Source of the DNA: Pandoraea norimbergensis | GTDB taxonomy: Bacteria > Pseudomonadota > Gammaproteobacteria > Burkholderiales > Burkholderiaceae | Assembly (NCBI RefSeq): GCF_001465545.3 | Contig: NZ_CP013480.3 | Coordinates: 806,001 to 870,000 of the forward strand | Direction of reading: 5' to 3' | Length of the DNA stretch: 64,000 nucleotides | Shown here: piece by piece, positions 31,212 through 46,397 of the stretch | Position numbering within the stretch: position 1 is the stretch's first letter | Layout of the letters: the number at the start of each line of letters is the position of its first letter | The notes under the pieces: generated by a model | Databases searched by the model: none | What the model was told of the DNA's origin: nothing | What the model saw: only the letters and a program-made list of their open reading frames with translations | Position numbers and translations under genes: made by a program

Positions 31212-31799
31212 TCACAGATCCAATCGGGAGATCTTGGTCCCGGACAGCGAGATGTCACCCATCAAGCCGCTGTTGGTCATGACAAACGCTTCAACAGGAT
31301 GACTGGTCGTCGTCGTATCGATCTGACCATTGGCACCCACTTTGACAATCGCGACGGACGCGTCGGCACCGGCCGACCACCCGTTTGAGTTGACGAATTT
31401 GTCGAGCGCTTCCTGCGTCATGAACAGATAGACCATCGACTTCGATTGCATCCCCAACTGGGCGCCCACGGAAGCGGACGAGACGCTGTAATACCCGCTC
31501 GTGCGCGTTCCGACCCGCAGAACACCGTCACCGTGCTGTCCGCCCACGATCACACCGGCCTGAATGACGGAGGGAAACACCAGCACGCCTTGCGCCTTGC
31601 CCACCAGTTCGCGCGAACCGGGAACCGTCGAGAGCAGCCTCGAGAGCGTGCCGTCTGCTGCGGCGTCGATAGACTGCTTGCGCGAATTGTTGGCCTCGGG
31701 TGTGGCCGGTGAGTTGCCTGACGTCGAGCATCCCGAGAGGACGGCAACCAACGCTGCGGCGACAACGGAAGCCCGGAAAAATTGACGACGAGTTTGCAT
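31212..31799 (-). CDS. SYLF/YSC84-domain lipoprotein (BPSL1445-like)
   Basis: 195 residues. The N-terminus has a TRRQFFRA segment and a lipobox LSGC with Cys at about 24, so it is a lipid-anchored envelope protein. The mature domain shows SYLF features: GVLVFPSVIQAGVIVGGQHGDGVL, YYSVSSASVGAQLGMQSKSMVYLFMT and a final beta segment. SYLF domains bind phospholipid in eukaryotes; bacterial versions are poorly defined outer-membrane-associated lipoproteins. An oriented copy of the shared bipartite motif lies 144 bp upstream. Confidence 0.8.
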   Translation of the reverse strand: MQTRRQFFRASVVAAALVAVLSGCSTSGNSPATPEANNSRKQSIDAAADGTLSRLLSTVPGSRELVGKAQGVLVFPSVIQAGVIVGGQHGDGVLRVGTRTSGYYSVSSASVGAQLGMQSKSMVYLFMTQEALDKFVNSNGWSAGADASVAIVKVGANGQIDTTTTSHPVEAFVMTNSGLMGDISLSGTKISRLDL

Positions 31800-31942
31800 G
31801 ACGATCTCCGATTTTTATTGTGAAGCACCCACCGATTGAGCCGAGCCCCGCGTGCCAGCGCCCGCGGAAACGGCGGAAATATCCCTGCGCACTCATCTCA
31901 GGGGCAATTGTCTGAGAGTGTCGGATTTGTGACGGCGCGTTG

Positions 31943-31983
31943 CCATTGGTAGTTGGGGCAGCACCGATTGCCCGTCGGGGCAG
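31943..31983 (-). promoter_or_regulatory. Shared bipartite motif, copy a (toward SYLF lipoprotein)
   Basis: Read leftward, this has CTGCCC, 16 nt, CTGCCCC, then a tail with ACCAATGG. The 14 bases TGCCCCGACGGGCA are identical to copy c. The motif lies upstream of the lipoprotein start at 31799 and points to it. Confidence 0.65.
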
Positions 31984-31998
31984 CGCAAGATATCGACG

Positions 31999-33726
31999 TC
32001 AGGTCTCGTTTTCACCACGGGGACCGGCGCTCTCCTGTGCGGGGGAGGGCGCCCAACCTTCGCGCGCGATGACAACCGGCATCTCCGGTTGTTCTTCGAA
32101 ATGAGGCGACATGATCTGCACGCCATATTCGTTGAATACATCGACGATCTGACTATGCAGTTCGCTCAACATGACGAGGCGCTGCGCAGGATTGACCGGC
32201 GCGACATGCAAGTCGTATTCGATATAGAAGTCCGAGAGCGAACGTTGAAGAACGAAGGGTGCCGGTGATTGTGCGACGCTTTTCGTTCGTGCCGCAGCAA
32301 GACTCAGCATTGCCTGCACCTGCCGCCATGGCGTGTCGTAGCCGATGGTCACCGAGGTGACGACCAGCGCTGGCGCGTTGCCGTCCCGGCTCGAGAAGTT
32401 GTGCACGATGGCACCGACGACAACGGCATTCGGAATGGTGACTTCTTCCCGGCGCACGTTGGTCAGCTTGACCGACAAGGTGTCCACGCTCACGACCACC
32501 CCGGCCGTGTCGCCGATCTGCACCATATCGCCGGCCTGAAACGCGCGGCTGTATGTCACGACGATGCCGCTCATCAATTGATTGACGATGCCTGCCGAAC
32601 CGAGCGAAATCATCAGACCCAATAGCACGCTCAATCCCTTGAAAACATCGCTTTGCGCGCCCGGAAAATACGGATAGGCAAACGTCAGCGCAAGCGCCCA
32701 GACCACGATGGCGACGATGCGACGGGAAGCATCGGCGGTGTCGGGATGCAGACCCGGGATATTGAGGTGACGTTGCTGGATCGCTGAAAAGACGTTGTTG
32801 ATGAGATTGTGCAGCGCGCGTGTGAGGAGAAATATCACCGCAATGGCGATCAGCCCGGGAATTGCATTGACAATGCCCAGCGCGAAGGTGTTCAACAAGT
32901 CCCAGAGAAAGCTGCTCAAGCGCTCGCCCATGGGCTCGGAGACAGGGAAGCGCTCCAGCACATAGATGAGGTAGACATAGACCAGCGCGGCCACAAAGAA
33001 AAGAAACAGCAACTGCACGATCTGCCGCGCCAACTGGAATGCCGACCCGGTCCAGTCGAAAGTTTGCGACGTGCGTCGAAGCAGATGCGCCTCGACGGCA
33101 TATTGGATGCGCGTCTGGAGCCGGGTTTGCAGCCGGCCGGCGATCCAGACCACGACGCCTAACACGACCGTTGCCAGCAGGGAAAGGAGGACGCCGCGAA
33201 TGATGTTGGGCCAGTGCAATTGCGCTTGTCTGGCGGCTAACGCGGTATCGAGCCGCACCTGTGTCTCCTGAGCGATGACCTCGAACGGGCGGTCGTCGGC
33301 TTCGTCGACATCGCCCGTCAGGAGCGCAAAAAGAATACGGTCGCCGCGACGGAATACCATGCCGTGGTTGGGTCCCATCGACGCCTGAACCGCTTGCGTG
33401 GGGAGGCTCAGAACGCTCTCTGGCAAGCCGTCAAGCACGGCGTAGGAGCGCTCGGCACGTTGCTGCGGCGTGGCGCCACTGAGCGACGCGCGAAATGTCG
33501 CGATCGGACGATCCATGTATCGAAGATCGGCGGCAGACGTATCGGGTGCAGCGGCAGGGCGTGACGCTTGTGCGTGGACCGCTGGCGACACGGCGACAAT
33601 CGCCAGACAGACGGCCAGCGACATCAGGAACGACGTCAAGCGCGAGGCAAGTTTTCGGCAAGACGACCGCATCGTCTCGTCTCGCGAGATGGCAGAGAAA
33701 GTCGCGGGTGCGTCAGTGCGGTTCAT
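31999..33726 (-). CDS. MscS-family mechanosensitive ion channel
   Basis: 575 residues from the ATG at 33724-33726 with AGGAG about 9 nt upstream. A second in-frame ATG 19 codons on starts directly at the signal-like segment (SFLMSLAVCLAIVAVSPAVHAQA). Several TM segments precede the pore helix at about 388-420, GLSVLLGLMISLGSAGIVNQLMSGIVVTYSRAF, followed by the beta domain GDMVQIGDTAGVVVSVDTLSVKLTNVRREEVTIPNA. A smaller relative of the channel at 23021, expected to open on osmotic downshift. It is divergent from a membrane-protein gene, with motif copy b between them. Confidence 0.88.
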   Translation of the reverse strand: MNRTDAPATFSAISRDETMRSSCRKLASRLTSFLMSLAVCLAIVAVSPAVHAQASRPAAAPDTSAADLRYMDRPIATFRASLSGATPQQRAERSYAVLDGLPESVLSLPTQAVQASMGPNHGMVFRRGDRILFALLTGDVDEADDRPFEVIAQETQVRLDTALAARQAQLHWPNIIRGVLLSLLATVVLGVVVWIAGRLQTRLQTRIQYAVEAHLLRRTSQTFDWTGSAFQLARQIVQLLFLFFVAALVYVYLIYVLERFPVSEPMGERLSSFLWDLLNTFALGIVNAIPGLIAIAVIFLLTRALHNLINNVFSAIQQRHLNIPGLHPDTADASRRIVAIVVWALALTFAYPYFPGAQSDVFKGLSVLLGLMISLGSAGIVNQLMSGIVVTYSRAFQAGDMVQIGDTAGVVVSVDTLSVKLTNVRREEVTIPNAVVVGAIVHNFSSRDGNAPALVVTSVTIGYDTPWRQVQAMLSLAAARTKSVAQSPAPFVLQRSLSDFYIEYDLHVAPVNPAQRLVMLSELHSQIVDVFNEYGVQIMSPHFEEQPEMPVVIAREGWAPSPAQESAGPRGENET

Positions 33727-33782
33727 CGTGGACGCTCCTGAATTGTCACAGCGGACCTGTGGCGATTCTCGCGCGATCCAAC

Positions 33783-33822
33783 GTGCCCCGGGGGGCAAAA
33801 TGCTTGCCCTAAACCCCGATGG
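33783..33822 (+). promoter_or_regulatory. Shared bipartite motif, copy b (toward 33893 gene)
   Basis: GTGCCC at 33783, TTGCCC at 33804 (21 bp start to start), then CCCCGATGG ending at 33822. The inner part forms an inverted repeat GGGCAA-N5-TTGCCC. It points to the membrane-protein start 71 bp downstream. Confidence 0.7.
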
Positions 33823-33892
33823 CGCGCTCGCGCATCCGGCGCAAGACTACGGGCCTGCACTACCTCACGCGACATCCGGCAAGGAGGCATTC

Positions 33893-35107
33893 ATGGGGAA
33901 TGAAATTCGGTCTGCCGACGCGAATCCCTCACAGCCCGACCCAGCGCCGGACATGGAGATGTCTCTCGTTCAAGGCGATCTCGGATTTCATCTCCAACGC
34001 CGTGTGCGGCTCATTCCCGCCGTCGGCATGGGCGCATGGCGCAGAGCGCTGATCTTCGCCGCCGTCAGCTGGCTGCCCCTGGCCGTGTGGGCGGTACTCA
34101 CAGGTCGCGCGCTGCAAGGCACCGGCGACGATACCCTCACCGCGCATTTCGGCATTCATGTGCGCTGTCTTGTCGCGATCCCGTTGTTGGTCGCCGCAGA
34201 AGGTGTGGCGCAGAAGATGATGCCGCCGCTGCTCAAATACTTCGTCGAGAGTGGTGTCGTCACTGAACAGACTGCCCCGGAATTTCGGCGGCAGTTGTCA
34301 CGCGTGGCACACCTTCGCGATCTCTCGCTGCCGTGGGTCGTCATTTTCGCGGTGGCGATCGCGTGTTCGACGATCGGTGCGCTGTACGGTCGCGCGGAAG
34401 ATCTGGCGTGGATGAATCAAGGCGAGCGGGTGCGTGACATCACCTTCGGCGGCTGGTGGTTCGTGCTCGTCATTCGTCCGCTGTTCACGGTGTTGCTGCT
34501 CGCGTGGCTATGGCGCGTATGCCTGCTGTTCGTGCTGCTGCTCAAGATCGGCAAGCTTCCGCTGGCACTTGTGCCGTCACACCCAGATCGCGTGGGCGGC
34601 CTCAGTTTTGTGGAGCACATGGCATTCATGTTCAGCCCGGTGGCGTTTGCCATTTCTGCTGTCGTCGCCGCGTCGTTTGCCCACGAGGTTGTTTATCACG
34701 GCGCGAGCGCAATGCAGATGAAGACGCTGCTTATCTCAAGCGCCGTGCTGATTTCGCTCGTCTTTCTGATTCCCTTTCTACCGCTGGGTATCCCGCTTGG
34801 CAGGCTCAAGCGCCGGGCAGCATTCGAATACGGCAGCCTGGTGGCGCATCACGACCGGCTCGTGCATCAGCGCTGGATTTTGCATCGCGATGTGGGTCGG
34901 CCCGAAATACTCGATGCGCCGGAGTTGGGGCCCGTCGCCGACGTGCATGCCATCTACGACGCCGTGGTTCACATGCGCTCGATCCCGTTGAGCAAGGTGT
35001 CCATCGTTGCGATCGTCGTCCCGGCCACACTGCCGATGCTCTATGTCGCGGCGATGCAATTGCCGTTGTCTGCGGTGTTGGGCAAGGTCTTCAAGGCATT
35101 GATCTGA
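33893..35107 (+). CDS. Polytopic membrane protein of unknown function
   Basis: 404 residues from the ATG at 33893, with a strong AAGGAGG at 33881-33887. The open frame runs much further upstream, but that part is antisense to the MscS gene and is not likely coding. About six hydrophobic segments are visible (near residues 50-70, 95-115, 145-165, 185-215, 245-275 and 280-310), plus a last one near the C-terminus. Between them lie charged loops such as RPEILDAPELGPVADVHAIYDAVVHMRSIP. I do not recognise the family. It carries the shared bipartite motif in its promoter. Confidence 0.65.
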   Translation: MGNEIRSADANPSQPDPAPDMEMSLVQGDLGFHLQRRVRLIPAVGMGAWRRALIFAAVSWLPLAVWAVLTGRALQGTGDDTLTAHFGIHVRCLVAIPLLVAAEGVAQKMMPPLLKYFVESGVVTEQTAPEFRRQLSRVAHLRDLSLPWVVIFAVAIACSTIGALYGRAEDLAWMNQGERVRDITFGGWWFVLVIRPLFTVLLLAWLWRVCLLFVLLLKIGKLPLALVPSHPDRVGGLSFVEHMAFMFSPVAFAISAVVAASFAHEVVYHGASAMQMKTLLISSAVLISLVFLIPFLPLGIPLGRLKRRAAFEYGSLVAHHDRLVHQRWILHRDVGRPEILDAPELGPVADVHAIYDAVVHMRSIPLSKVSIVAIVVPATLPMLYVAAMQLPLSAVLGKVFKALI

Positions 35108-35129
35108 CGGACCGGGGCGTTGACCGTAG

Positions 35130-36135
35130 TCAGAAACTCATGGCGAAGCCGAACGAGACGCCCTGCACGTTATGACCAAATACGTAGCGAGCCATGAGTC
35201 GCGTGCGCGTCACGACGACTGGATACTTGCTGCTGTCGAGTTCCAGTCCTACGCCGAGCGACGTCAGATTGTTAAAGCCAAGCACGCCCGCACTATCCCC
35301 GAAGTATTGCGAGTAAGCGGCTTCCAGCACGTAGCGAACCGGGCGGTCGAGCGCGCGCAGGCCCGTTGGCGCTCGCCAGCGTGACCACAAACTTACCTGC
35401 TGCGCATTGGCGCTCCCCTGAACACCCGCTGCGGAACTGCCGAAACTGCGCAGGTGGATATTGGTCAGGCGCAATTCGACGTCGATTTCGTACGCCTCGC
35501 GATAGTGCTCGAAATCGAGCATCAGCGAGCCGCCGAGTCCGTAGGCGTTCAACGCACCGTTGTCGAGAAACTGCGCATTCAGATCCGTCGCGCGATTGAG
35601 CAACGTTTCACCCACACGAAGATCGCTGACCACGCGCCCTAGGCTGCTGTTGAAGATCGGGCGGAGCACCAGTTCGTCGGAGAGCCGGAAATCCCAACCG
35701 ACGCCGATGGTCGTGCTCAAGGTGTTCCAGCGCACAGGGAGCGAGCGATGTTCCGTGCCGTCCGAAGCAACGAACGTGGGGTCGTATCGGCTATAGGCCA
35801 ACGTGCCTTCCAGATAGAGCGGGAACGAGCGGCTGAGCGTGAAGCCGCCACCCAACTGCGTCTGCCAGAACCCGGGGTTCCCGGTGGAGCCGTTGTTGAT
35901 GGAGAGGGAGCTCGTTGTCACGTCCGGCACGGTGGTGTAGCTAATGATGGCCAGCACGCTGTTCGCATGACTTTTCACGTCGGTGCCGACGCGAAGGGGG
36001 GGGAGATTGCGCGAGCGCTGCCGAGGCGCTCAATGTCAGACAAGCCAGCGTCGCCAGCGAGGCGAAGTCTCTGCGGCGGTTGGCGGCCCGAACCACGCCT
36101 CCGTTGCATCTCGTTCTCGTCAGTCCCTTCATTGA
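35130..36135 (-). pseudogene. Outer-membrane beta-barrel protein gene interrupted by a G8 homopolymer frameshift
   Basis: Two leftward frames belong together. The first (start about 36135) encodes a basic N-region and signal peptide (FASLATLACLTLSASAALAQS), then leaves frame at a run of eight G on the plus strand (35996-36003) and stops at 35941. The second, from the run to the stop at 35130, encodes about 280 residues of amphipathic strands with alternating aromatic residues, ending SFGFAMSF with the C-terminal Phe typical of outer-membrane barrels. Seven or ten G would join the signal peptide to the barrel as SPPLRVGTDVKSHANS. This may be phase variation, a decaying gene or a sequencing error. 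The exact start is uncertain. Confidence 0.65.
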
Positions 36136-36234
36136 CATAGCCGGCTCGCGCGGTGGAAATCGCATGCATTCGCCATCGTGCGTCATTGTCGCGTCCGCCC
36201 AACCCTTGGGCCATCGGTGGGGAGGGCAACGGCA

Positions 36235-36274
36235 TTGCCCCGACGGGCAGATGGCTTGCCCTCAGTCCCGATAG
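36235..36274 (+). promoter_or_regulatory. Shared bipartite motif, copy c (toward diguanylate cyclase)
   Basis: TTGCCCC at 36235 and TTGCCC at 36256 (21 bp start to start), tail TCCCGATAG ending at 36274. The spacer contains GACGGGCA, identical to copy a. It points to the GGDEF gene start at 36333 and lies behind the divergent barrel gene. Confidence 0.7.
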
Positions 36275-36332
36275 CCCCGGCTCCCGATAACGAAAAGAAT
36301 GAGGGCGCGTCGATCACAGGGTTCGCAGGCAC

Positions 36333-37832
36333 ATGACTTCCCCCAACACGTCACCGGCTTCGTCACGAAGGTTTGGCCCACGGTTCGGACCGCTCGGCCT
36401 GACGCTCGTGGCGGTGGGGATCGCTGTGGTGATCGTTATCGGCGTACGTGCGACTTTGCTCTATGAGGGGCGCGTGGCGGTGCGCGACGACGCGCGCAAT
36501 GCGAACGCGCGTGTGGCGCGACTTGCCGCACGCGTGATGGGCGACGACATCTCGGCCTGCACGCAAGCGCTTGACGCGCTCGGCATTGCGGGGCGGGCGG
36601 ATCCCAGTGCGCAACTGACCAACTGCCTCGGACGTTTCGGCCATCCCGTCATCACGGATCAGTCGAGCGGCGTGCAGACGTTGACTTACGCTCAAGCGGT
36701 CATCGTCAACGACGCGGGCGAGGTGGTGTTCGAGGCGTTGCCATCGGCGACCTGCGTCGATCGCGCGCTGGTGCAGCGAATTGTTGCTGCTGGGCGGCGC
36801 GAAGGCGGCGGTGGGTTGACGGTGTCCATGTCCGCACCGCTATGCCCCGGGGACAGCGCTAAGGGATTGATGTTGACGCATGGTATTCGTCGTGCCGACG
36901 GTGGCTTTGCTGGCGTCGGTATCGTGACCGTCGACGCCGAATACTTCACGCGTCTGTTCGCCGGACTCGCCCCGGGCGAGCAGGGCGTCGTCTCGCTCCT
37001 TAGCAACGATGGTGTCGTGCTTAACGGCTGGGCGTCCGGGAATGCGAGAGATGACGGCGACGCACAGACGTCGTCAGGTGCCGACGGCGATTTCCTATAC
37101 ATTCGGCAGCCCCTCCCGGGGGTGCCGATGCAGATCGACATTCGCGCGCCCCGAAGCGAGATCTATGCCGAATGGCGAAAGCGGGCGTTCTGGGTCGCCG
37201 GTCTGACGGCCGGCCTCGGTGCTGCCTGCGTGGTGCTCGGTATTTTGCTGAGGCGTCAGGGCAGGCGCCGGAAGCAGGCCGAAGCCGCGCTGCAACAAAT
37301 GGCCAGCACAGACCCGCTGACCGGACTCGCCAACCGGCGCACCCTTGACGAAGCCTATGACAGGGAATGGCGGCGTGCGGTACGCGAGCGAGCGCCGCTG
37401 TCGCTGCTGTTCATCGATGTCGATCACTTCAAGACGTTCAATGACCGGTACGGCCACCCGGCGGGCGATGACGCGCTCGTGGCCGTCGCCCGTGCGATCT
37501 CGCATTCGATCCGGCGCCCCGGCGATTTTTTTGGACGGTACGGCGGGGAAGAGTTCATGGTGATCTTGCCGAAGACGGACGCGGGTGGCGCGCGCGACGT
37601 TGCTGAGCGTGTGAGAGCCGCCGTGCGTGCCGCTGCGATTGCGCACGAAGGCAGCGAGCACGGCCGCGTGACCATCAGCATCGGTATTGCCGGCACGGGG
37701 GCGATGCCGACGGGCACCCCGGATTCGCTCCTGCAAGCCGCGGACGAAGCGCTTTACTCGGCGAAGCGCGAGGGGCGCGATCGCGTATTCATCCACGCAA
37801 ACTCTGGAGGTGACCCATGCCCGGCGATTTGA
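36333..37832 (+). CDS. Membrane-anchored diguanylate cyclase with periplasmic sensor domain
   Basis: 499 residues. TM1 lies near 22-42 and TM2 near 288-310, enclosing a periplasmic sensor of about 240 residues with four Cys and a PAS/dCache-like look. The GGDEF domain follows: STDPLTGLANRR, then a GGEEF active site preceded five residues upstream by RPGD, an RxxD inhibitory I-site. Active synthesis of cyclic di-GMP with product inhibition is therefore expected. The gene carries motif copy c and overlaps the next gene by 16 bp. Confidence 0.9.
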   Translation: MTSPNTSPASSRRFGPRFGPLGLTLVAVGIAVVIVIGVRATLLYEGRVAVRDDARNANARVARLAARVMGDDISACTQALDALGIAGRADPSAQLTNCLGRFGHPVITDQSSGVQTLTYAQAVIVNDAGEVVFEALPSATCVDRALVQRIVAAGRREGGGGLTVSMSAPLCPGDSAKGLMLTHGIRRADGGFAGVGIVTVDAEYFTRLFAGLAPGEQGVVSLLSNDGVVLNGWASGNARDDGDAQTSSGADGDFLYIRQPLPGVPMQIDIRAPRSEIYAEWRKRAFWVAGLTAGLGAACVVLGILLRRQGRRRKQAEAALQQMASTDPLTGLANRRTLDEAYDREWRRAVRERAPLSLLFIDVDHFKTFNDRYGHPAGDDALVAVARAISHSIRRPGDFFGRYGGEEFMVILPKTDAGGARDVAERVRAAVRAAAIAHEGSEHGRVTISIGIAGTGAMPTGTPDSLLQAADEALYSAKREGRDRVFIHANSGGDPCPAI

Positions 37833-39229
37833 CACTGGAACAAAGAAAAGCGGCTGGCAAGCTCGCGCGTGAGCGCACGCCTCGCTCGAAGCAGGCAGAC
37901 ATTGGTAATGTGGACCGCGATCCCGTCGCGCTGCTGCGTCAAAACAGCGCAGGCCGTGTCGACGCACTGGTCCCGCTGCGATACGGACGCATGTCAGTGT
38001 CGCCCTTCACGTTCTATCGCGGCAGCGCAGTGCTGCAAGCGCACGATCTGGCCAGAACGCCGACCACGGGTTTCACGTTCCCCATTTGCGGTGACGCGCA
38101 CCTCATGAACTTTGGCGGTTTCGCCACGCCGGAGCGGCAACTCGTTTTCGACCTCAACGACTTTGACGAGGTCGCGCCGGGGCCTTGGGAGTGGGATCTC
38201 AAACGGCTTGCCGCCAGCTTCGCGATTGCCGGTGACCACATGGGCATCGATCGCGGCACGATCCGTGATGTCGTGACATCGGCCGTGCGTGAATATGGCG
38301 AGCGCATGCAGGAGTACGCGGGTTATAGCGCCCTCGATCTTTGGCACGAAATCGTGACGTTCGATCGCATGGCTGAGGCCGCGGTGACAGGAGAGGGGCG
38401 ACGATTGATTCGTAAAACGGCTGAAAAGGCCGCCGGGCGCTCTCACGAGGCGATGCTCGAAAAAATTGCGGTCCGTCAGGACGGGCGATGGGTAATTCAG
38501 GACGCGCCGCCGGCATTGTTTCATCCATCCGGGCCGAACTCGCTGTTGGGCAGCGCGCACGCGTGGTCGGACACGCAAGCGTGGAAGGGAAAACTTGCGA
38601 AGGCGTTTAACGAATACGTCGGCACGCTGCCGGTGGACCGGCGAGCGCTCATCGATCAGTTCCAGCTTCAGGACATCGCCTTCAAGGTCGTTGGCGTGGG
38701 CAGCGTCGGCACGTTCTGTCTGGTGATGTTGTTCGTCGACGCCCACGGCAAGCCACTGTTCCTTCAGGTCAAGGAAGCTCGGGAATCGGTGATCTCCCGG
38801 TACTTCCCCGTGGGGAAGGTGCATCACCAGGGCCTGCGCGTGGTGGCCGGGCAGCGCCTGCTTCAGGCGGCGAGTGACGCCTTTCTCGGATGGACGAGCG
38901 GTCCGAACGGAAGACATTTCTACTTCCGGCAACTGCGCGATATGAAGGTCTCGGCGGAAGTCGAGCGGATGAACGACACGATCTTGCAGGGTTACGCCCG
39001 CATTTGCGGCTGGGCGCTCGCCCGTGCGCATGCAAAGTCGGGCGGGCTCGCCGTGGAGATTTCGTCGTATATCGGCGACGCCAAGCGCCTGGCGGAATCC
39101 ATGACGTCGTACGCGCTGGACTACGCCGAGCAGAACCAAAAAGACTACGACGCGTTTATGCGCGCCATCCGCTCGGGGAAGCTCGTCGCGCGTAGTGACG
39201 AAGATATGGCCGCCGATTTTCGAATCTGA
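37817..39229 (+). CDS. DUF2252 family protein
   Basis: 470 residues. The start at 37817 lies inside the diguanylate cyclase end, with GGAGGTG 6 nt upstream, so translation is coupled. Family marks include SPFTFYRGSA, CGDAHLMNFGGFATPERQLVFDLNDFDEVAPGPWEWDLKRL and the late YAEQNQKDYDAF. The H/N/D spacing resembles a kinase-like phosphotransferase fold, and I infer possible phosphotransfer; the family has no assigned activity. Coupling to a cyclic-di-GMP enzyme is unusual. Confidence 0.8.
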   Translation: MPGDLTLEQRKAAGKLARERTPRSKQADIGNVDRDPVALLRQNSAGRVDALVPLRYGRMSVSPFTFYRGSAVLQAHDLARTPTTGFTFPICGDAHLMNFGGFATPERQLVFDLNDFDEVAPGPWEWDLKRLAASFAIAGDHMGIDRGTIRDVVTSAVREYGERMQEYAGYSALDLWHEIVTFDRMAEAAVTGEGRRLIRKTAEKAAGRSHEAMLEKIAVRQDGRWVIQDAPPALFHPSGPNSLLGSAHAWSDTQAWKGKLAKAFNEYVGTLPVDRRALIDQFQLQDIAFKVVGVGSVGTFCLVMLFVDAHGKPLFLQVKEARESVISRYFPVGKVHHQGLRVVAGQRLLQAASDAFLGWTSGPNGRHFYFRQLRDMKVSAEVERMNDTILQGYARICGWALARAHAKSGGLAVEISSYIGDAKRLAESMTSYALDYAEQNQKDYDAFMRAIRSGKLVARSDEDMAADFRI

Positions 39230-39238
39230 AGCGGCAGC

Positions 39239-39272
39239 GCGGGCGAGTCACGGCGAGACCCGTGCCGCCCGC
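39239..39272. terminator. Interrupted hairpin between convergent DUF2252 and receiver genes
   Basis: GCGGGCG...CACGG-N6-CCGTG...CGCCCGC lies between the two convergent stops and extends into the receiver gene end. No T-run follows, so termination is only suggested. Confidence 0.35.
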
Positions 39273-39619
39273 TCGATGGCGGCGAGCAGATCGCTGCCGA
39301 GAAAGGGTTTGGTCAAGACCTCGGCGATGCCGATACGCTGGATATCGGCACGGGTCTTGGCGTTGTCGTATGCCGTGACGAAGACGACAGGCGGGCGCGG
39401 GAGCGGTAGCGCCGCAAAGAACGCCGGTCCGGACGTGCCCGGCAGTTGTACGTCGGCGACCAGGCAATAGGCGCTGCGGACACACTGGATCAACCCCACG
39501 TCGTCTGCCCCAGCGAACGATCGGGTGCGAAATCCGTAAAGCTTCAACAGGCGCTCGACAGCGCGACGCATGCCTGTGTCGTCCTCCAGAATCGCGATGA
39601 GGTTCCTTGGTGTGGTCAT
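39248..39619 (-). CDS. Stand-alone response-regulator receiver domain
   Basis: 123 residues comprising a single receiver domain without output. The acidic pocket is Glu12-Asp13-Asp14, the phosphorylation site is Asp56 in LVADVQLP, the switch Thr is in VTAYDNAK, and the conserved Lys is in TKPF. The closest style is FixJ-type receivers. It could pass phosphate or inhibit the kinase/regulator pair 2-4 kb away (inference). Motif copy d lies 53 bp upstream and points to it, so it is itself in the motif set. Confidence 0.83.
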   Translation of the reverse strand: MTTPRNLIAILEDDTGMRRAVERLLKLYGFRTRSFAGADDVGLIQCVRSAYCLVADVQLPGTSGPAFFAALPLPRPPVVFVTAYDNAKTRADIQRIGIAEVLTKPFLGSDLLAAIERAARVSP

Positions 39620-39671
39620 GAGGCGGTCTTGTCCCTATGAATGCATTTTTCTTTGGAATGCGACGCAACCG

Positions 39672-39711
39672 CCATCGGGACTTGGGGCAACGCCGATACC
39701 CTGTCGGGCAA
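39672..39711 (-). promoter_or_regulatory. Shared bipartite motif, copy d (toward receiver gene)
   Basis: Read leftward, TTGCCC at 39711-39706 and TTGCCCC starting at 39690 (21 bp apart), tail AAGTCCCGATGG ending at 39672. A third TTGCCCC lies just upstream at 39721-39715. It points to the receiver start 53 bp away. The divergent DUF2092 gene may share the promoter region. Confidence 0.7.
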
Positions 39712-39849
39712 TTTGGGGCAATCACCTAGGCATGGCAGACCTTGACCGCTACATTGGCTTTACGGCGTTGGCGGTCGAGTTTCGTGTCCGCGTTGCACCG
39801 TGCTCGACACTCTGAAGCCATTGATATCTCCTTGATTTGAGGCGCGACG

Positions 39850-40626
39850 ATGAGACGACAGGCATTGGCAATTTTGATGTTGCTCACCACAGGCGCGGCA
39901 CCGGCCGTGTGGGCACAAGGCACACCCGCGAGTGCGGCTTCGGCGCAAGCCAATGCGGTTGACCCGGACGCGGTGCAGGCGCTGCACACGATGGGAAGCT
40001 ACCTGCAATCGCTCAAGCGATTTCGCGTGTCGACGGACCTAACCGGTGAGCGCGTGCTGGCGGATGGGCAGAAGCTTCAACATGGCGCGCAGGCCACGCT
40101 GGAAGTCGACAGGCCGGAGCATCTTCGCGCGATCATGAGAAGCGCGCGCAGCGAGCGCGAGATCATTTACGACGGAAAGACCGCAACGCTGTATGCCCCC
40201 GAGCAGAAGTACTACGCGTCGGTGCCCTTCAAGGGAACGCTGGCCGATCTCATCAAGGATCTGCGCTCGCGCTACGGCGTAGAGCTTCCACTGGCCGATC
40301 TGTTTACATGGGGAACGCCTGACGCGCAGAACCGGCAATTCGATTCCGCCATGTTTGCGGGACAGGACTATGTCGGAAACGATCTCTGCGATCATTACGC
40401 CTATCGGCAAGCGGGTATCGACTGGCAGATCTGGATCACGAGCGGGGACAAGCCACTGCCGCGCAAGATCGTCGTGACCCGCACGGACGACGATGCGCGC
40501 CCGCAGTCGGTGTCCGTTTTGTCTTGGAAACCCGGCACTTCCATCACACCGTCGACGTTCCAATTCCGCCCGCCGCCCGGCGCGAAGAAGATCGAAGCGC
40601 TCAAGCTGCCTGCCAGCAAGGGGTGA
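39850..40626 (+). CDS. Periplasmic DUF2092 (LolA-like fold) protein
   Basis: 258 residues with a signal peptide (LMLLTTGAAPAVWAQG). The mature part shows LHTMGSYLQSLKRFRVSTDLTGERVL, MRSARSEREIIYDGKTATLYAPEQKYYASVPFKGTLADLI, which matches DUF2092 proteins predicted to have a lipoprotein-carrier-like half-barrel. Such proteins may bind lipid or lipid-like ligands in the periplasm. It is divergent from the receiver gene and followed 4 bp later by a secreted Gly/Asn-rich protein gene. Confidence 0.75.
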   Translation: MRRQALAILMLLTTGAAPAVWAQGTPASAASAQANAVDPDAVQALHTMGSYLQSLKRFRVSTDLTGERVLADGQKLQHGAQATLEVDRPEHLRAIMRSARSEREIIYDGKTATLYAPEQKYYASVPFKGTLADLIKDLRSRYGVELPLADLFTWGTPDAQNRQFDSAMFAGQDYVGNDLCDHYAYRQAGIDWQIWITSGDKPLPRKIVVTRTDDDARPQSVSVLSWKPGTSITPSTFQFRPPPGAKKIEALKLPASKG

Positions 40627-40630
40627 CAAG

Positions 40631-41149
40631 ATGAAAAGAAATCTCTCCCCCTCCCTGTCTGCATGTGTCGCCGCGACGCTGTTAGCCTTTTCCACGCTCG
40701 CGATTTCGCCATCGATGGCGGCGGGCCGTGGCGGTCACGGCGGTGGCGGCGGTGGTGCCCACGCGCGCGGGCAGGGTGCCGGCGACCATCAAGCCGGGCA
40801 GCGCAACGCACAGCGTCCGAATGCAGGCAATCGACAGGCCGATGCACGAACGCGCAACGTACGAAACACCAGCGTGAACAACGTCAACGTCGACCGGAAT
40901 GTGAACGTGAACGTCGACAACCACGGTGGCTATCACGGTGGATGGGACGATGACTATCACCCGGTGGCCACTGCCGTAGCGGTCACGGCGGCGGTCGGTG
41001 TGACGGCCGCCGTGATCGGATCGGTGGTGCGCTCGGTGCCGGCCAATTGTGTCCCGGTCAACTATCGCGGCATGATTTATCAGCAGTGCGGCAGCACCTG
41101 GTATCAGCCGCAGGGCACGCAGTTCGTGGTGGTTACTGCGCCGTATTGA
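40631..41149 (+). CDS. Secreted Gly/His/Asn-rich protein with conserved WYQPQ tail
   Basis: 172 residues from the ATG at 40631. The signal peptide ends near PSMAAGRG. A Gly/His run follows, then Arg/Asn-rich sequence with repeated NVNVD units. A hydrophobic patch (AVAVTAAVGVTAAVIG) could anchor it. The C-terminus VPANCVPVNYRGMIYQQCGSTWYQPQG has a two-Cys pattern often seen in small secreted proteobacterial proteins of unknown function. It starts 4 bp after the DUF2092 stop, so the two form an operon. Confidence 0.65.
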   Translation: MKRNLSPSLSACVAATLLAFSTLAISPSMAAGRGGHGGGGGGAHARGQGAGDHQAGQRNAQRPNAGNRQADARTRNVRNTSVNNVNVDRNVNVNVDNHGGYHGGWDDDYHPVATAVAVTAAVGVTAAVIGSVVRSVPANCVPVNYRGMIYQQCGSTWYQPQGTQFVVVTAPY

Positions 41150-41155
41150 GTGGAC

Positions 41156-41192
41156 GACGGCGAGCGTACTGGCTGATCAGGCGCTCGCCGTC
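41156..41192. terminator. Hairpin between convergent secreted-protein and histidine-kinase genes
   Basis: An 11-bp perfect stem GACGGCGAGCG / CGCTCGCCGTC surrounds a 15-nt loop. It overlaps the last codons of the kinase gene. There is no T-run, but the position between convergent stops supports a termination role. Confidence 0.5.
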
Positions 41193-43093
41193 TCGATGTC
41201 GGCGCAATGCACCGGATTGAGCATCGTGGAGGCAAGCGGGAGCCAGAGGACGAATTCGGTACCGCCACCGCTTCTGCGTCGAGCGTACACACTCCCGCGA
41301 TGGGCTTCGGCGATGGAGCGCACGATGGAGAGGCCAAGCCCCGTGCCACGCTCCTTGGTCGTGTAGAAGGCTTCGAATAGTTGATCGACATTGTCTTGTG
41401 GAATGCCGATGCCTTGATCCGAAATGACGAGTTCGAGACCGTCGCCGGCGATACGTGTCGTGATCGACAGTTCGCGATCTTCCTGCTCGGCGTTCTCCAT
41501 CGCGTCTAACGCGTTGATCGCCAAGTTGAGCAGTACCTGCTGCAATTGCACCTGATCCGCCAGTACTTGCGCCTCATTCGTGCCGAACTGGGTGTGCACG
41601 ACGATGCCGCGACGACGGGCTTCCGGACGTACGAGCGACGTTGCGCGCTCAAGCACGGTGTCGAAAGTGACGGGCGCGAACGTGATGGCCTGCTTTTGGA
41701 GCAACGCGCGCAAGCGGACGATCACATCGTTGGCGCGCAGGGCATCGCGTCTGACGTCGGTCAGGATCTCTCGCAGTTCGGCGTCACTGTTATCGGAGGC
41801 CTGCATCATCAGGTCCGCCGCGTCGACGTTGCTGAGAATGGCCCCTAACGGTTGCCCGACTTCATGAGCGATCGATGCGCTGAGTTCGCCAACCGTCGCG
41901 ATTCTCGAGGCTCGCGTGAGATCGGCATGGCGCGTCGCGGCTTTGCGCTCGGCAATGCGCCGCTCGCGCCGCTGTCTGAGCATGGCGACAATCGTGAACG
42001 CCTGCGCGCCAATGACGAACAGCGCCACCGCCATTTCCTTCCAGTACTCCCGATAGGGCGGAAGTGGGACGTTGAGCCACTTGCAGTCGGGGCCGAGAGA
42101 GCGTTCGGAGATTCCCAAACGTCGTAGCACCGCGATGTTGGCGATACATCGTGCAGGTAACGCCGGTGCTACCGCGCCGGTTTGGTAGGTCTTGTCCCCC
42201 ATGAGCATGCGCGCGGCGATCTCGCCCGTCATGCGGCCGTTCTCTTCGAGGTCATACACCGCGCCGGCGGCCGCGCCTTGGTCGATATAGTTGGCATACC
42301 ACCCGTAGATGGGAACGGGCGCGTCCTCGGCAGTTCGGTTGACCAGTTCAAAGGGAAAGTAACGTCTGCCGCCCTGATCACGGTACTGAGTTCCATACAG
42401 GACTGCGGTGGTGTGCTTGTCGAGCTTGGCCAACCGGCTGCGAAGCTCCGGCACCGGCAATCCCTCCCAACGCTCGATTGACGTCCATTTGTCGCGGCGC
42501 AATGCCGCAGCTTCGACGATTTCGTCGGAGAACCGTGCGTCCAGCTCCGCGCTGCCCCCGATGACAACCAAATGGGTTGCTTCGGGCTGAAGCGATTCGG
42601 CGATGGCGAGCGTTTTTCCGATCTCGATGCGGTACGGCATCAGCACGAACGTGGACGGAAATTCGCCCGTCCGTCTTAGCCACGCTTCCGGAACGCTGGT
42701 GACCAGCACAGGAGTCCCCGGCCAGATGGCCGCGTGATGCGTGCGGGCAAACTCGGCCGCGTAGTTGCCGATGGCGATCACAAGATCGATGTGCTGGCCG
42801 TCGTACTTCTTGCGGAGCAGGGCAAAGAGCTCAGGTGTGAGCCAGTCGGCACCGAATCGGAGGCCGTCGAGCGTGTCGAGGAAGGTTTCGCTGCCCAGCG
42901 GCAATTCGGCATTCAGCACGCTGCGGATCGCTTGCGTTTGCATGAGCACCGCCGCTTGCATGGGGTCGCCACCGGTGAGCAGGACCACCTTCGGTGGTTC
43001 CGCGCTCAGCGCCGGGAGCGTCACGACACCGCACAGGGTGAATATCACCAGTGATACGGCCCCCCGAAGGGTTCGACCGGCGATGCCGGTCAC
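41177..43093 (-). CDS. Hybrid-sensor histidine kinase with ABC-type periplasmic binding domain
   Basis: 638 residues. A signal/TM segment (about 11-31) is followed by a 300-residue periplasmic domain that resembles ABC sugar/tryptophan-type substrate-binding proteins (PKVVLLTGGDPMQAAVL, VIAIGNYAAEFAR, TAVLYGTQYRDQGG, EIAARMLMGDK). A TM near 354-372 leads to a kinase core: H-box SIAHEVGQPLGAI with His410, N-box NLAINALDAM, G1 DQGIGIP and G2 GTGLGLSI. It is therefore a ligand-sensing kinase. Its gene overlaps the FixJ-like regulator by ATGA and they form a two-component pair. Confidence 0.87.
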   Translation of the reverse strand: MTGIAGRTLRGAVSLVIFTLCGVVTLPALSAEPPKVVLLTGGDPMQAAVLMQTQAIRSVLNAELPLGSETFLDTLDGLRFGADWLTPELFALLRKKYDGQHIDLVIAIGNYAAEFARTHHAAIWPGTPVLVTSVPEAWLRRTGEFPSTFVLMPYRIEIGKTLAIAESLQPEATHLVVIGGSAELDARFSDEIVEAAALRRDKWTSIERWEGLPVPELRSRLAKLDKHTTAVLYGTQYRDQGGRRYFPFELVNRTAEDAPVPIYGWYANYIDQGAAAGAVYDLEENGRMTGEIAARMLMGDKTYQTGAVAPALPARCIANIAVLRRLGISERSLGPDCKWLNVPLPPYREYWKEMAVALFVIGAQAFTIVAMLRQRRERRIAERKAATRHADLTRASRIATVGELSASIAHEVGQPLGAILSNVDAADLMMQASDNSDAELREILTDVRRDALRANDVIVRLRALLQKQAITFAPVTFDTVLERATSLVRPEARRRGIVVHTQFGTNEAQVLADQVQLQQVLLNLAINALDAMENAEQEDRELSITTRIAGDGLELVISDQGIGIPQDNVDQLFEAFYTTKERGTGLGLSIVRSIAEAHRGSVYARRRSGGGTEFVLWLPLASTMLNPVHCADIETASA

Positions 43094-43713
43094 GACATTT
43101 GCACAGCCACGCCGGAGATTTGCTTCTCGGTGTGCCTGAGCAGCTCTGCCAGTGACGTGGCGCGAAATTTACGCATGATCTCCGCGCGGCACGTTTTGAC
43201 AGTCCGTTCGCAAAGACCGAGTTCCGCGGCAATCTGCTTATTGCGCAGACCCTTGGCGATGCCTTGCAGCACGACCTGCTCGCGTCCGCTTAGCGGTGAT
43301 TGGACGTCGTCGGCACAAGACGGCGTCTGCTTACGTTGCACGAGGCTGATGGCGGTTTCCACCGCATGCATCAGTGCATCGCGCTCAAACGGCTTGATAA
43401 GGAAATCCACGGCGCCAGCCTTCATGGCTTCGACGGAGCGTGCCACGTCCCCGTACCCGCTCATGAACACGACAGGCAGGTCCGGCGCCTGACGCCGAAG
43501 GGCGCGTTGCAAGTCGAGACCGCTGGGGCCTCCCAACTCGAGATCCAGGAGAACACAACCGGGGCGATCGTCCGGCTCGCTGACGAGGAATTCTCCCGCA
43601 GATGCATATTCCTTGGTGTCATAACCCGAGACACCCAGCAGGCGTGTCAGTGCTGACCGCATGGAGGCGTCGTCATCGACAACATGCACGACCGATTCAC
43701 GACTGGCATTCAT
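43090..43713 (-). CDS. FixJ/NarL-like response regulator with LuxR helix-turn-helix
   Basis: 207 residues. The receiver has Asp13-15, phosphorylation site Asp57 in VLLDLEL, the switch MSGYGD and Lys in IKPF. The DNA-binding part starts near 137: LSGREQVVLQGIAKGLRNKQIAAELGLCERTVKTCRAEIMRKF. It is the partner of the downstream kinase, with a four-base overlap. As the only DNA-binding regulator in the 31-49 kb block it is the best candidate to read the shared bipartite motif. No motif copy lies in its own promoter. Confidence 0.87.
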   Translation of the reverse strand: MNASRESVVHVVDDDASMRSALTRLLGVSGYDTKEYASAGEFLVSEPDDRPGCVLLDLELGGPSGLDLQRALRRQAPDLPVVFMSGYGDVARSVEAMKAGAVDFLIKPFERDALMHAVETAISLVQRKQTPSCADDVQSPLSGREQVVLQGIAKGLRNKQIAAELGLCERTVKTCRAEIMRKFRATSLAELLRHTEKQISGVAVQMS

Positions 43714-44182
43714 AGCATCTCCGCTTAGCTCGCGCGCTGAAAAGAATCTCCCCCGGGCGTTGAAAGGCTTTCCGTCGGTATGTAGGAATTATTCCGACGT
43801 GGGTAATTTAAATTATTACGTTTTACTGAATAAATAACGATTCAAGCTGGCTGGTGAAGCAAATGCACGAAATTTAGAATTTCAAGATAGTTCAATTGAT
43901 AGCATCTCTGAATAAATTCGTAAAGAAAGTTCGACTGAATGGTGGCGTGGCGGTTGGCGTGGCATGAGCGTTTTGTAGCGTTTCGTAGCGATTCGCGATT
44001 TCTCGTGTTGTTATTCCCGCTGTGTGGAAATTTCGCGGATCAATTAATTTCCGATTGCCCAAAGGGGATTTGGCTTTTGCCCCATACACCTATGTCATTG
44101 GTGCAGGCAAATGTTGAGAATGACTTCCGTGGATATTTGGCCGGATGTAAAACGCTCACCCAATGTCTTTGCGGAGGACCTC
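43714..44182. other. 469-bp AT-rich intergenic region with dyad at 43774-43800
   Basis: Unlike the rest of the window, 43800-44050 is AT-rich, with many short A/T runs, and no gene is visible in it. The left part contains CGTCGG-N15-CCGACG (43774-43800) and inside it GGAAT-T-ATTCC, which could be an operator for the divergent response-regulator gene. The right part carries motif copy e and the strong GGAGG of the alkylsulfatase gene. Lower GC suggests a promoter region or older transferred DNA. Confidence 0.6.
44055..44094 (+). promoter_or_regulatory. Shared bipartite motif, copy e (toward alkylsulfatase)
   Basis: TTGCCC at 44055 and TTGCCCC at 44077 (22 bp apart), tail ACACCTATG ending at 44094. 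The spacer contains GGGGATTTGGC. It points to the alkylsulfatase start at 44183. Confidence 0.65.
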
Positions 44183-46168
44183 ATGAAACGCCAGTCAGTA
44201 GTTGCCGTGATAGCGCTTGTTGCCGCGACCCTTGCCGGGACCGTGGCGCAAGCGCAGTCGTCACCACCGCAGCCCGCCGATGCAACGGCGGCCACGCGCG
44301 ACGCGAATCAGAAGTTGTTGAACTTCCTCCCCTTCGCGAACAAGCAGGACTTCGAGGACATTCAACGAGGATTCATCGCAGCGCTTCCGAATCCTGTCGT
44401 CAAGGGCGCCGCAGGCAACACGGTCATCGATCTCTCTCAGTACGACTTTCTGAAGAAGAACATGGCGGGTGAGGCGCCACCGACGGTCAACCCAAGCTTG
44501 TGGCGGCAGTCGCAACTGCTGTCGGCGCAAGGCTTGTTCAAGGTGATCGACGGCATCTATCAGGTGCGCAACGTCGATCTGGCCAACATCACGTTCGTGC
44601 GCGGCAAGACGGGCTGGATCGTGATCGACCCGCTGACGTCCGTCGAGACGGCCAAGGCGTCGCTGGATCTCGTCAACAGCAAGGTGGAGAAGCTCCCGGT
44701 CACGGGCGTGATCTTCACGCATAGTCACGTGGATCACTTCGGTGGTGTGCGCGGTGTCGTCGACGAGAAGGATGTGCGCTCGGGCAAGGTCCCGCTCGTC
44801 GCGCCGGAGGGATTCATGGAAGAAGCCGTCAGCGAAAACGTGTTCGCTGGCACTGTCATGAGTCGGCGTGCGTCGTATATGTACGGCAATCTGCTGCCGA
44901 AGGACCCGAAGGGTAACGTCGGCGGTGGCCTGGGTCTCACGACGGCGGCCGGCACGATCACGCTATTCGAGCCGAGCAAGCTCATCAAGAAGACGGGCGA
45001 GACGCTCAACATCGACGGTATCGACATCGTCTTCCAGATGGCGCCGGGTACCGAGGCGCCTGCGGAAATGCTGTTCTACTTCCCGCAGTTCAAGGCGATT
45101 GATCTTGCCGAGGACGCGACGCACACGCTGCACAACATTCTCACGTTGCGTGGTGCGAAGGTCCGGAGTGCGCAGAAGTGGTCCCATTACCTTGACGAGA
45201 CGATTCGCCTCTGGGGCAATGACGCTGTCGTGTCCTTCAGCAGCCACCACTGGCCGCAATGGGGTAACGATCGTGTGGTGCAGCATCTTGAGAAACAACG
45301 CGACCTCTATCGCTATATCAACGATCAGACGCTTCGCATGGCCAATCAGGGCATGACGATGCACGAGATCGCGGACAAGTTTCAATTGCCCGATTCGCTG
45401 GCCAAGGAGTTCTATAGCCGCGGGTATTACGGCAATCTGAAGCACAACGTGCGCGCCACGTATCAGCTCTACCTCGGATGGTGGGACGGTAATCCCGCAA
45501 ATTTCGACCCCTATGCGCCGACGGATGAAGCGAAGCGATACGTTGACCTGATCGGTGCAGACAAGATGCTCAAGGGGGCGAAGGCGGCGTTCGACAAGGG
45601 CGACTATCGCTGGGCTGCCGAACTGACGAACAAGGTAGTCTTCGCGCAACCGACGAATCAGGCCGCCCGTAATCTTGAAGCCGCTGCGCTGGAGCAGTTG
45701 GGCTATCAGGCGGAATCGGGGCCGGCGCGCAACTTCTACCTGAGCGGCGCACAGGAGCTTCGAGGCGGTGTGCATAAGGTGGCCACGCCGAATACGTCCT
45801 CACCCGACATCATTCGCGGCATGACCACCGAGATGTTTCTGGACTTCCTTGCGATTCACTTGAATGGGCCGAAAGCAGCGGACAAGGCGTATGCGTTCAA
45901 CGTGACGTTCCCGGATACCAAGCAAAATTACGCGTTGACGGTCAAGAATGGCGTGATGAACTACAGCAAGGACACGGTGTTGCAGAAGGCCGACGCCAAC
46001 ATCTCCCTGAATCGTTCGACGCTCGACGACATTGCGCTGGGCAAGCTGAAGCTGGGGAATCTTGCGGACAGTGGGCAGGTGCAGTTCGACGGCGACCGGG
46101 CGAAGTTCAAGGAGATGCTCGGTCTGTACGACAAGTTCGACTTCTGGTTCACGATTGCGGAACCGTGA
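44183..46168 (+). CDS. SdsA-type periplasmic alkyl/aryl sulfatase (metallo-beta-lactamase fold)
   Basis: 661 residues from the ATG at 44183 with GGAGG 5 nt upstream. A signal peptide ends near TVAQAQSS. The metallo-beta-lactamase zinc motif THSHVDHFGG starts at residue 179, and EDATHTLHN provides another metal ligand. The C-terminal third contains a helical dimerisation part and an SCP2-like hydrophobic-ligand domain (WAAELTNKVVFAQP, NRSTLDDIALGKLKLGNL), as in Pseudomonas SdsA1, which removes sulfate from dodecyl sulfate and other primary alkyl sulfates. A terminator follows 35 bp downstream. Confidence 0.9.
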   Translation: MKRQSVVAVIALVAATLAGTVAQAQSSPPQPADATAATRDANQKLLNFLPFANKQDFEDIQRGFIAALPNPVVKGAAGNTVIDLSQYDFLKKNMAGEAPPTVNPSLWRQSQLLSAQGLFKVIDGIYQVRNVDLANITFVRGKTGWIVIDPLTSVETAKASLDLVNSKVEKLPVTGVIFTHSHVDHFGGVRGVVDEKDVRSGKVPLVAPEGFMEEAVSENVFAGTVMSRRASYMYGNLLPKDPKGNVGGGLGLTTAAGTITLFEPSKLIKKTGETLNIDGIDIVFQMAPGTEAPAEMLFYFPQFKAIDLAEDATHTLHNILTLRGAKVRSAQKWSHYLDETIRLWGNDAVVSFSSHHWPQWGNDRVVQHLEKQRDLYRYINDQTLRMANQGMTMHEIADKFQLPDSLAKEFYSRGYYGNLKHNVRATYQLYLGWWDGNPANFDPYAPTDEAKRYVDLIGADKMLKGAKAAFDKGDYRWAAELTNKVVFAQPTNQAARNLEAAALEQLGYQAESGPARNFYLSGAQELRGGVHKVATPNTSSPDIIRGMTTEMFLDFLAIHLNGPKAADKAYAFNVTFPDTKQNYALTVKNGVMNYSKDTVLQKADANISLNRSTLDDIALGKLKLGNLADSGQVQFDGDRAKFKEMLGLYDKFDFWFTIAEP

Positions 46169-46203
46169 TCAACCCGGTGCAAGGTTGCTAGTGAGTCTCC
46201 TGG

Positions 46204-46235
46204 GCCCGTATGCGAAGTGCATACGGGCTTTTTTT
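46204..46235 (+). terminator. Rho-independent terminator after alkylsulfatase gene
   Basis: GCCCGTATGC-gaagt-GCATACGGGC, a perfect 10-bp stem, is followed by seven T. It separates the alkylsulfatase from the DUF1254 pair, so the latter needs its own promoter, next to motif copy f. Confidence 0.93.
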
Positions 46236-46276
46236 CAATCGAATACAAGGGCGATTTCAAAGGCAATACGCCGATA

Positions 46277-46316
46277 TTGCCCCAATGTGCAATACGGTTG
46301 CCCCTTCTCCTAATGG
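46277..46316 (+). promoter_or_regulatory. Shared bipartite motif, copy f (toward DUF1254 pair)
   Basis: TTGCCCC at 46277 and TTGCCCC at 46298 (21 bp apart), tail TTCTCCTAATGG ending at 46316. It lies just after the terminator of the previous gene and 82 bp before the DUF1254 start, and so marks a new promoter. Confidence 0.72.
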
Positions 46317-46397
46317 CAGCGCCTAGCAAAGTATTTGATGCTTTGAGCAGGCTGAACCATCAAGACAATGACTTACCCGCCGGAAGGTGGAAACTTC

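Follow-up and report, generated by a model that had tools for sequence, protein, structure and literature searches.

A four-part promoter element in a Pandoraea norimbergensis gene cluster and its probable reader, a FixJ/StyR-type response regulator

Introduction

FixJ-type response regulators are very common, and operators are known for only a small number of them. The subject here is a promoter element found in seven copies within one gene cluster of Pandoraea norimbergensis, in a stretch of 64,000 nucleotides (NZ_CP013480.3, positions 806,001 to 870,000, forward strand; hereafter the window), together with its probable binder, a FixJ/StyR-type response regulator encoded in that cluster.

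Several described systems are close to this one. At the fixK promoter, FixJ protects -69/-44 and -57/-31, and attempts to define the FixJ operator have produced varying results (PMC4999443). The same source describes FxkR of the Rhizobiales, a response regulator analogous to FixJ, with the site GTTACA-N4-GTTACA (PMC4999443). StyR, the name given to the solved structure 1yio, belongs to a group that may recognise ATAAAC-N4-GTTTAT, and the StyR residues proposed to contact DNA are Lys175, Val176 and His179 (PMC5874301). FixT of Caulobacter is a single-domain receiver that acts as a negative-feedback regulator of FixL in the FixLJ pathway and carries a four-cysteine Fe-S motif (PMC7078487).

Results

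A preliminary description of the window, made from its letters alone, had listed six oriented copies of a bipartite element, and all six lie at the coordinates and on the strands it gave. Scanning both strands for two boxes and a tail, with a cut-off of 15/18, recovered these copies together with a seventh at 36211-36250 (-), which diverges from the copy at 36235, so that six was not the full number. The sole further match in the window, at 27551-27590 (-), scores exactly at the cut-off and is without the core; first-order Markov sequences of equal size gave 0.3 matches per 64 kb at 15/18 and none at 16 or above (10 replicates). The shared layout stands as described, with a pair of TTGCCC-like boxes at a distance of 21-22 bp, the GGG core and the CC-N-AT tail, and five copies hold exceptions to its letters: CTGCCC at both boxes at 31943, GTGCCC as box 1 at 33783, a GTG core and CTAATGG tail at 46277, and tails ending in ATAG at 36235 and in ATGT at 44055. 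All point at a gene, with gaps to the start codon of 143 bp (31943), 70 (33783), 58 (36235), 52 by coordinates (39672), 87 (44055) and either 51 or 81 (46277, which has two possible starts), a range of 51-143 bp that agrees closely with the 53-144 bp first reported. The copies and their associated parts are listed below; each -10-like hexamer stands at a nearly fixed offset.

31943..31983, minus strand: element 1 (box 1 to tail; spacing 22), upstream of the SYLF/Ysc84-domain lipoprotein gene 31212-31799
31917..31922, minus strand: -10-like hexamer GACACT of element 1
33783..33822, plus strand: element 2 (spacing 21), upstream of the 404-aa protein gene 33893-35107
33843..33848, plus strand: -10-like hexamer AAGACT of element 2
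36235..36274, plus strand: element 3 (spacing 21), upstream of the GGDEF gene 36333-37832 and the overlapping DUF2252 gene 37817-39229
36295..36300, plus strand: -10-like hexamer AAGAAT of element 3
36211..36250, minus strand: element 7 (spacing 21), upstream of the beta-barrel-like gene 35130-36162 (-)
36185..36190, minus strand: -10-like hexamer GACAAT of element 7
36235..36250, no strand: 16-bp inverted repeat TTGCCC-N4-GGGCAG, box 1 common to the divergent elements 3 and 7
39672..39711, minus strand: element 4 (spacing 21; zero mismatches to the pattern), upstream of the single-domain receiver gene 39248-39619
39716..39721, minus strand: extra half-site TTGCCC, 10 bp before box 1 of element 4
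39645..39650, minus strand: -10-like hexamer AAAAAT of element 4 (offset 21)
44055..44095, plus strand: element 5 (spacing 22), upstream of the alkyl sulfatase-like gene 44183-46168
44116..44121, plus strand: -10-like hexamer GAGAAT of element 5
46277..46316, plus strand: element 6 (spacing 21; core GTG, tail CTAATGG), upstream of the DUF1254/DUF1214 genes 46368-47927 and 47940-49496
46337..46342, plus strand: -10-like hexamer GATGCT of element 6, a weaker match (3/4)

The element is concentrated in this cluster at the scale of the whole genome. In the single contig of 6,167,370 bases, the pattern TTGCCC-N15/16-TTGCCC-N6-CCNATGG, which covers box spacings 21 and 22, occurs with at most one mismatch at six places, every one in the cluster. 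The copy at 31943 is a cluster site with two mismatches, and the two non-cluster places with two mismatches (263367 and 3844240) both are without the GGG core. At these two spacings the rest of the genome yielded no match of equal quality, and relatives carry the element before orthologous genes; the preliminary description had named scattered matches of equal quality inside genes, and absence upstream of orthologues, as the findings that would speak against it, and neither was observed. A conserved, oriented promoter element is thus supported by both the genome scans and the orthologous promoters of relatives. On a 28-point scale the seven cluster sites score 24-27, and further convincing targets in the genome of the window were not found; the formylglycine-generating-enzyme genes of that genome (L177-L179 scanned, with L180, which overlaps L179, left out) have no site above 21/28.

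The anatomy was computed from 69 sites in the window and 35 relative loci, collected with box-start spacings of 20-23 allowed and the tail fixed 12 bp after box 2, the best register in an earlier scan that had permitted 11-13 bp with a one-point penalty off 12. Removal of the chance-like L095 and L096 (G133 and G146) left 67 sites, in which those with identical flanks are merged and one overlapping L089 site is counted twice. With similar sites down-weighted, their consensus profile reads aTTGCCC-N4-GGGCAAt, then TTGCCCcAA-n-YMCCnATRGC, and then RAnAMT at a nearly fixed distance. Four parts can be distinguished, namely an inverted repeat TTGCCC-N4-GGGCAA, a second TTGCCC 20-23 bp on, a CCnATRG tail reaching a weak -35, and a -10 of the form RAnAMT. 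The term bipartite was correct for the two boxes and understated the element, since its left half is an inverted repeat and a -10 follows at a nearly fixed distance.

Box starts are 21 bp apart in 50 of the 67 sites, 22 in 11, 20 in three and 23 in three, and the distance of the RAnAMT hexamer from the tail is constant within 1 bp. The hexamer had formed no part of any scan before the profile was made. When one site is taken for each target family, it stands at offset 20 in 9/18 and at 21 in 5/18, all other offsets from 8 to 47 yielding 0 or 1/18; about 16 of these 18 families are independent, because two of them, L068 8104 and L077 6093, are promoters with orthologues in the set that had been placed under spurious reading frames. 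Across all sites the hexamer is found at offset 20 or 21 in 57/67, with a trace of TRGY about 17 bp upstream of it as a candidate -35. From these spacing and offset counts, box 2, the tail and the -10 form a nearly rigid unit, and box 1 floats over 3 bp.

In the 14 sites that make up divergent pairs, the second half of the repeat is GGGCA[AG] without exception (14/14), against 32/53 of the other sites (Fisher p 0.003), although the seven pairs count as one case because they are orthologues of a single promoter. At L107 and L108 an inverted repeat is likewise common to divergent sites, between other genes. This sharing fits a symmetric dimer site that may be used both ways. An extra TTGCCC stands exactly 10 bp upstream of box 1 in 12/67 sites, and none was found at offsets 7-9 or 11-20. 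At L089 3584-3644 (G025), two overlapping tandem elements with one box in common precede a sulfatase gene.

The presence of the element follows that of the cluster's response regulator. Among 149 relatives, searched for the regulator at a preset E-value of 1e-40, the motif (at most two mismatches) was found in 13 genomes, the regulator in 23 and both in 10, with none for the reversed control. Those ten are the ten best regulator matches, down to G050 (1.4e-57), and the next, G099 (2.8e-55), is motif-free. The other three motif genomes are G021, whose site before a DUF1254 gene is plausible, and G133 and G146, whose matches are chance-like and are the only two among 59 genomes from other families of the order, within which the search stayed. 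In 398 Burkholderiaceae genomes, at a regulator cut-off of 1e-50, the motif (at most one mismatch, spacing 21) was present in 28, the regulator in 28 and both in 27, while the reversed pattern gave 0/398 (Fisher p ~1e-39, uncorrected for relatedness). The genome with the regulator only, G359, has a weaker site (24/28, with two mismatches in box 1) about 90 bp past the regulator match; the genome with the motif only is G334. Within the genus the distribution is patchy, the regulator system being found in 9/32 genomes and the motif in the identical nine at this cut-off. The same relation was seen at the level of loci, in the best 80 of 198 found by the regulator in named genomes: at regulator identities of at least 58% the motif is present at 16/16 loci (eight from six Pandoraea, eight from Paraburkholderia), and at 51% or less it is present at 0/64, although the locus and genome tests overlap because several loci lie in genomes that the family scan also counted. 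Pandoraea records include regulators 94-95% identical to that of the window. In G358 (C15:182091-182681), one TAG stop lies inside the regulator match, yet the genome has four motif sites.

The recognition helix separates the regulators in the same way. Motif-bearing regulators have the helix [SC]ERT[VI]K[TS]CRA, with R170, C175 and A177 in 18/18, whereas in the 64 motif-free regulators the corresponding positions are mostly occupied by I/V (58), H/Y (63) and G (48). Regulators at 51-53% identity were compared in order to separate the helix from overall similarity. Those with Cys have sites near by in 5/5 (L079, L181, L183, L184 and L186), in a small and non-random test in which four of the five Cys loci come from known motif genomes and G359 (L181) was fetched as the exception; none of the three with His, from two lineages (L072; L074 with L075), has a site of at least 21/28. 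L114 (51%, His) has no site by locus scan.

The proteins proposed to read the element and to act in the same pathway are the following.

43090..43713, minus strand: response regulator (receiver and GerE/LuxR HTH; NarL/FixJ family), the proposed binder on the grounds of Pfam, co-occurrence and recognition helix
41177..43093, minus strand: presumed partner sensor histidine kinase, with an ABC_sub_bind-like domain followed by HisKA and HATPase_c
39248..39619, minus strand: single-domain receiver protein, the proposed target and feedback part, with a receiver domain only

The response regulator exceeds the cut-offs for both PF00072 (88.9 bits) and PF00196 (61.4 bits), giving it the architecture of the NarL/FixJ family, and is the sole protein with a DNA-binding domain among those scanned from 31.2 to 49.5 kb. 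The kinase has HATPase_c, with its ABC_sub_bind-like domain (22.7 bits, Pfam cut-off 25.9) and HisKA both under the cut-off. The 123-aa protein behind element 4 matches PF00072 only, and the SYLF/Ysc84 lipoprotein is of the BPSL1445 family, over the cut-off. The 404-aa protein has no Pfam match and is called a membrane protein by reading of its sequence; for the beta-barrel-like protein, sought with an L084 relative, no family match was found, and the barrel is likewise called by reading.

In relatives, a simple script assigned the starts of the genes behind the sites and produced some spurious frames. The set comprises 85 sites, of which one had no called gene, leaving 84; 6/24 Paraburkholderia sites (L108 and L109) were left out. 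Short receiver proteins of one BLAST cluster stand behind 16/84 sites, alkyl sulfatase and DUF1254 genes are found behind elements as in the window, and other elements stand before genes whose proteins carry FGE-sulfatase (PF03781), Sulfatase (PF00884) or HAD domains (one representative of each scanned). From these sulfatase-type targets one may reasonably guess that the system serves to handle sulfate esters in the envelope, but nothing firmer.

Several observations on individual genes were made alongside. The frame of the beta-barrel-like gene at 35130-36162 (-) is split at a run of G near 35998-36002, where relatives have intact genes of ~338-351 codons; a slip in sequencing, phase variation or decay of the gene may account for the split. 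The kinases of L076, L079, L101, L102, L104 (the same place as L078) and L112 have no match to the periplasmic domain of the window kinase, which ten other loci match, and motif and regulator are retained at these six places; in the L102 kinase, the signal peptide and first sensor residues lead straight into a membrane segment. At L068 8104-8143 (G019) and L094 4279-4317, an element persists between the MscS-like and barrel genes with no match to the 404-aa protein there, a homologue of which, with its own element, lies ~106 kb away. Pandoraea iniqua (G010; L093 and L097) has two regulator copies, with a kinase match near one only and none near the L097 copy.

Discussion

The preliminary description recognised no regulator for the element. 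There is now a well-supported candidate in the cluster's own response regulator, which is of the FixJ/StyR type. The seven copies are probably the operator and core promoter of one two-component regulon bound by this regulator, a reading to which we assign a probability of about 0.86. From the computed anatomy, the concentration in the cluster, the conservation before orthologues, a -10 at a nearly constant distance, the joint occurrence of motif and regulator and the helix signature, we infer a pathway of signal, phosphorylation, binding, activation rather than repression, sigma-70 recruitment and feedback. The histidine kinase (41177-43093) would sense a signal, presumably via its periplasmic domain, and phosphorylate the response regulator (43090-43713), a dimer of which would then bind the 16-bp inverted repeat TTGCCC-N4-GGGCAA. 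A further unit of the regulator would occupy the TTGCCC about two helical turns downstream and, placed rigidly beside a poor TRGY -35 that overlaps the CCnATRG tail and a RAnAMT -10 that departs from the consensus, could recruit sigma-70 RNA polymerase there. If the hexamer is taken as the -10, the approximate positions would be -72 for box 1, -51 for box 2 and -39 to -32 for the tail. The seven promoters so driven would serve the SYLF lipoprotein, the membrane protein, the GGDEF and DUF2252 proteins, the beta-barrel-like protein, the single-domain receiver, the alkyl sulfatase-like enzyme and the two DUF1254 proteins, and the receiver protein may feed back on the kinase, as FixT does on FixL.

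The direction of control is not given by the sequence, and the same operator and regulator might instead hold the genes off until release, by binding upstream of and over the -35, which the tail overlaps in the presumed promoter. A core promoter as poor as TRGY and RAnAMT argues for activation, however, as do boxes situated upstream of the -35, where the footprints of FixJ at fixK lie, and repression appears unlikely. It is more improbable again that the regulator is a passenger and that another protein travelling with the cluster reads the element, for example an alternative sigma factor for CCnATRG and RAnAMT. Co-occurrence cannot separate proteins of one cluster, and some of those present have no family match, but there is no sigma factor among the cluster proteins scanned, the helix signature tracks the motif at equal overall identity, and in G019, where kinase and regulator are ~100 kb apart, sites are found at both places.

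We also considered a sigma-54 promoter, in which GGGCAAT-N4-TTGCCC would represent the -24/-12 elements (GG-N10-GC) and the left TTGCCC would be incidental. At spacing 21, as in 50/67 sites, GG and GC are exactly 12 bp apart and GGGCAAT-N4-TTGC comes near the consensus TGGCACG-N4-TTGCW, as quoted in PMC4999443. The fixed spacing is nonetheless broken by the 17/67 sites at 20, 22 or 23, varying even between orthologous promoters of one gene, and a -10 hexamer follows downstream at a nearly fixed distance; on these two grounds the sigma-54 reading is rejected as very improbable. In addition, box 1 is conserved nearly as well as box 2 (the scan having demanded both), and the regulator is without a sigma-54 activator domain. 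Several similar copies in 14 kb might also suggest a dispersed repeat of the REP or MITE type spreading within the cluster, but it is the boxes that are conserved and not the spacers, which makes this origin barely credible. The copies moreover point at start codons, orthologous promoters retain them across species with the spacing drifting by single bases, and whole-genome pattern scans revealed no unrelated place with a copy whose spacers and flanks were conserved.

A number of points weigh against binding of the element by the cluster's response regulator. The operon of kinase and regulator, the MscS-like gene and the DUF2092 gene are all without an element, and a LysR-type gene (26565-27590) lies 4 kb outside the cluster, although among 19 relative loci, in stretches of limited length, it was seen only in L063. 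Plausible single sites without a close regulator are carried by G021 (L092, before the DUF1254 gene) and G334 (L182), which may be relics or read by another protein. Conversely, G099 and G101 (E <1e-50) and G148 have fairly close regulators outside the family and no motif, so that similarity of the regulator alone is no predictor of the motif. The p-values overstate independence because genomes inherited the cluster by descent, and the family E-value cut-off was picked after the result for the 149 relatives had been seen. The scans presupposed the grammar of the motif (tail 12 bp after box 2, spacing 20-23), the RAnAMT hexamer was defined after the profile had been viewed, and the T usual at the first position of a -10 is present in just 2/67 hexamers. 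As for specificity, allowing three mismatches gave 33 and 19 genome places, mostly outside the cluster (reversed control 6 and 3), and the bare TTGCCC-N15-TTGCCC occurs 12 times in the genome, just three of them in the cluster; by these mismatch counts, boxes, core and tail are specific as a combination and the two boxes alone are not.

With binding by the response regulator kept as the preferred reading, a broader proposal can be made tentatively, at somewhat less than even odds as a whole. A StyR/FixJ-like subfamily of the Burkholderiaceae, marked by the [SC]ERT[VI]K[TS]CRA helix, may have switched to a G+C-rich 6-4-6 operator, with His-to-Cys as the main specificity step and the kinase sensor domain lost in several species. 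Its own regulon of sulfatases, their formylglycine-generating enzyme, DUF1254 proteins, the SYLF lipoprotein and the feedback receiver would have been gained and lost as a unit. No published description of the element or the regulator was found by title or abstract in the open-access literature, which is weak evidence of novelty. The work provides a candidate regulator for little-studied envelope and hydrolase genes (DUF1254, DUF2252, SYLF and alkyl sulfatase, and in relatives also sulfatase and formylglycine-generating enzyme). Operator, regulator and helix signature correspond in dozens of genomes, so that swaps of single residues would allow a direct test of DNA specificity in regulators of this family.

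Likeness to described regulatory systems

The best-scoring solved structure for the window regulator is 1yio, titled 'response regulatory protein' in the PDB and named StyR in PMC5874301; FixJ (5xso) scores second. The regulator shares its domain order with StyR, TodT and TmoT, and the proposed operator of the StyR group has the same 6-4-6 inverted geometry as TTGCCC-N4-GGGCAA, with unrelated letters. The StyR residues proposed as DNA contacts correspond to Lys173, Thr/Ser174 and Ala177 in the window regulator, Lys being kept and Val and His replaced, and the targets of the two regulators differ.

Tests against equivalogs place the regulator outside both named families that were compared. It scores 177.2 bits against the cut-off of 255 for FixJ (NF006900) and 130.7 against 290 for TtrR (NF040749), and as both cut-offs are missed, it is neither FixJ nor TtrR by this test; the kinase reaches 163 bits where the FixL cut-off is 850. 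The FixJ site TAAGTAATTTCCCTTA (PMC4999443) is likewise unrelated in letters to the window element. FxkR resembles the present system in its spaced hexamers and differs in that these form a direct and not an inverted repeat, of other letters. Sigma-54 promoters are similar at spacing 21, and the window element differs from them by its variable spacing and its -10. If the RAnAMT hexamer is the -10, the boxes would lie where the footprints of FixJ are reported for fixK (PMC4999443). The regulon of the window holds a single-domain receiver behind a promoter of its own system, and FixT is such a receiver in the FixLJ pathway (PMC7078487).

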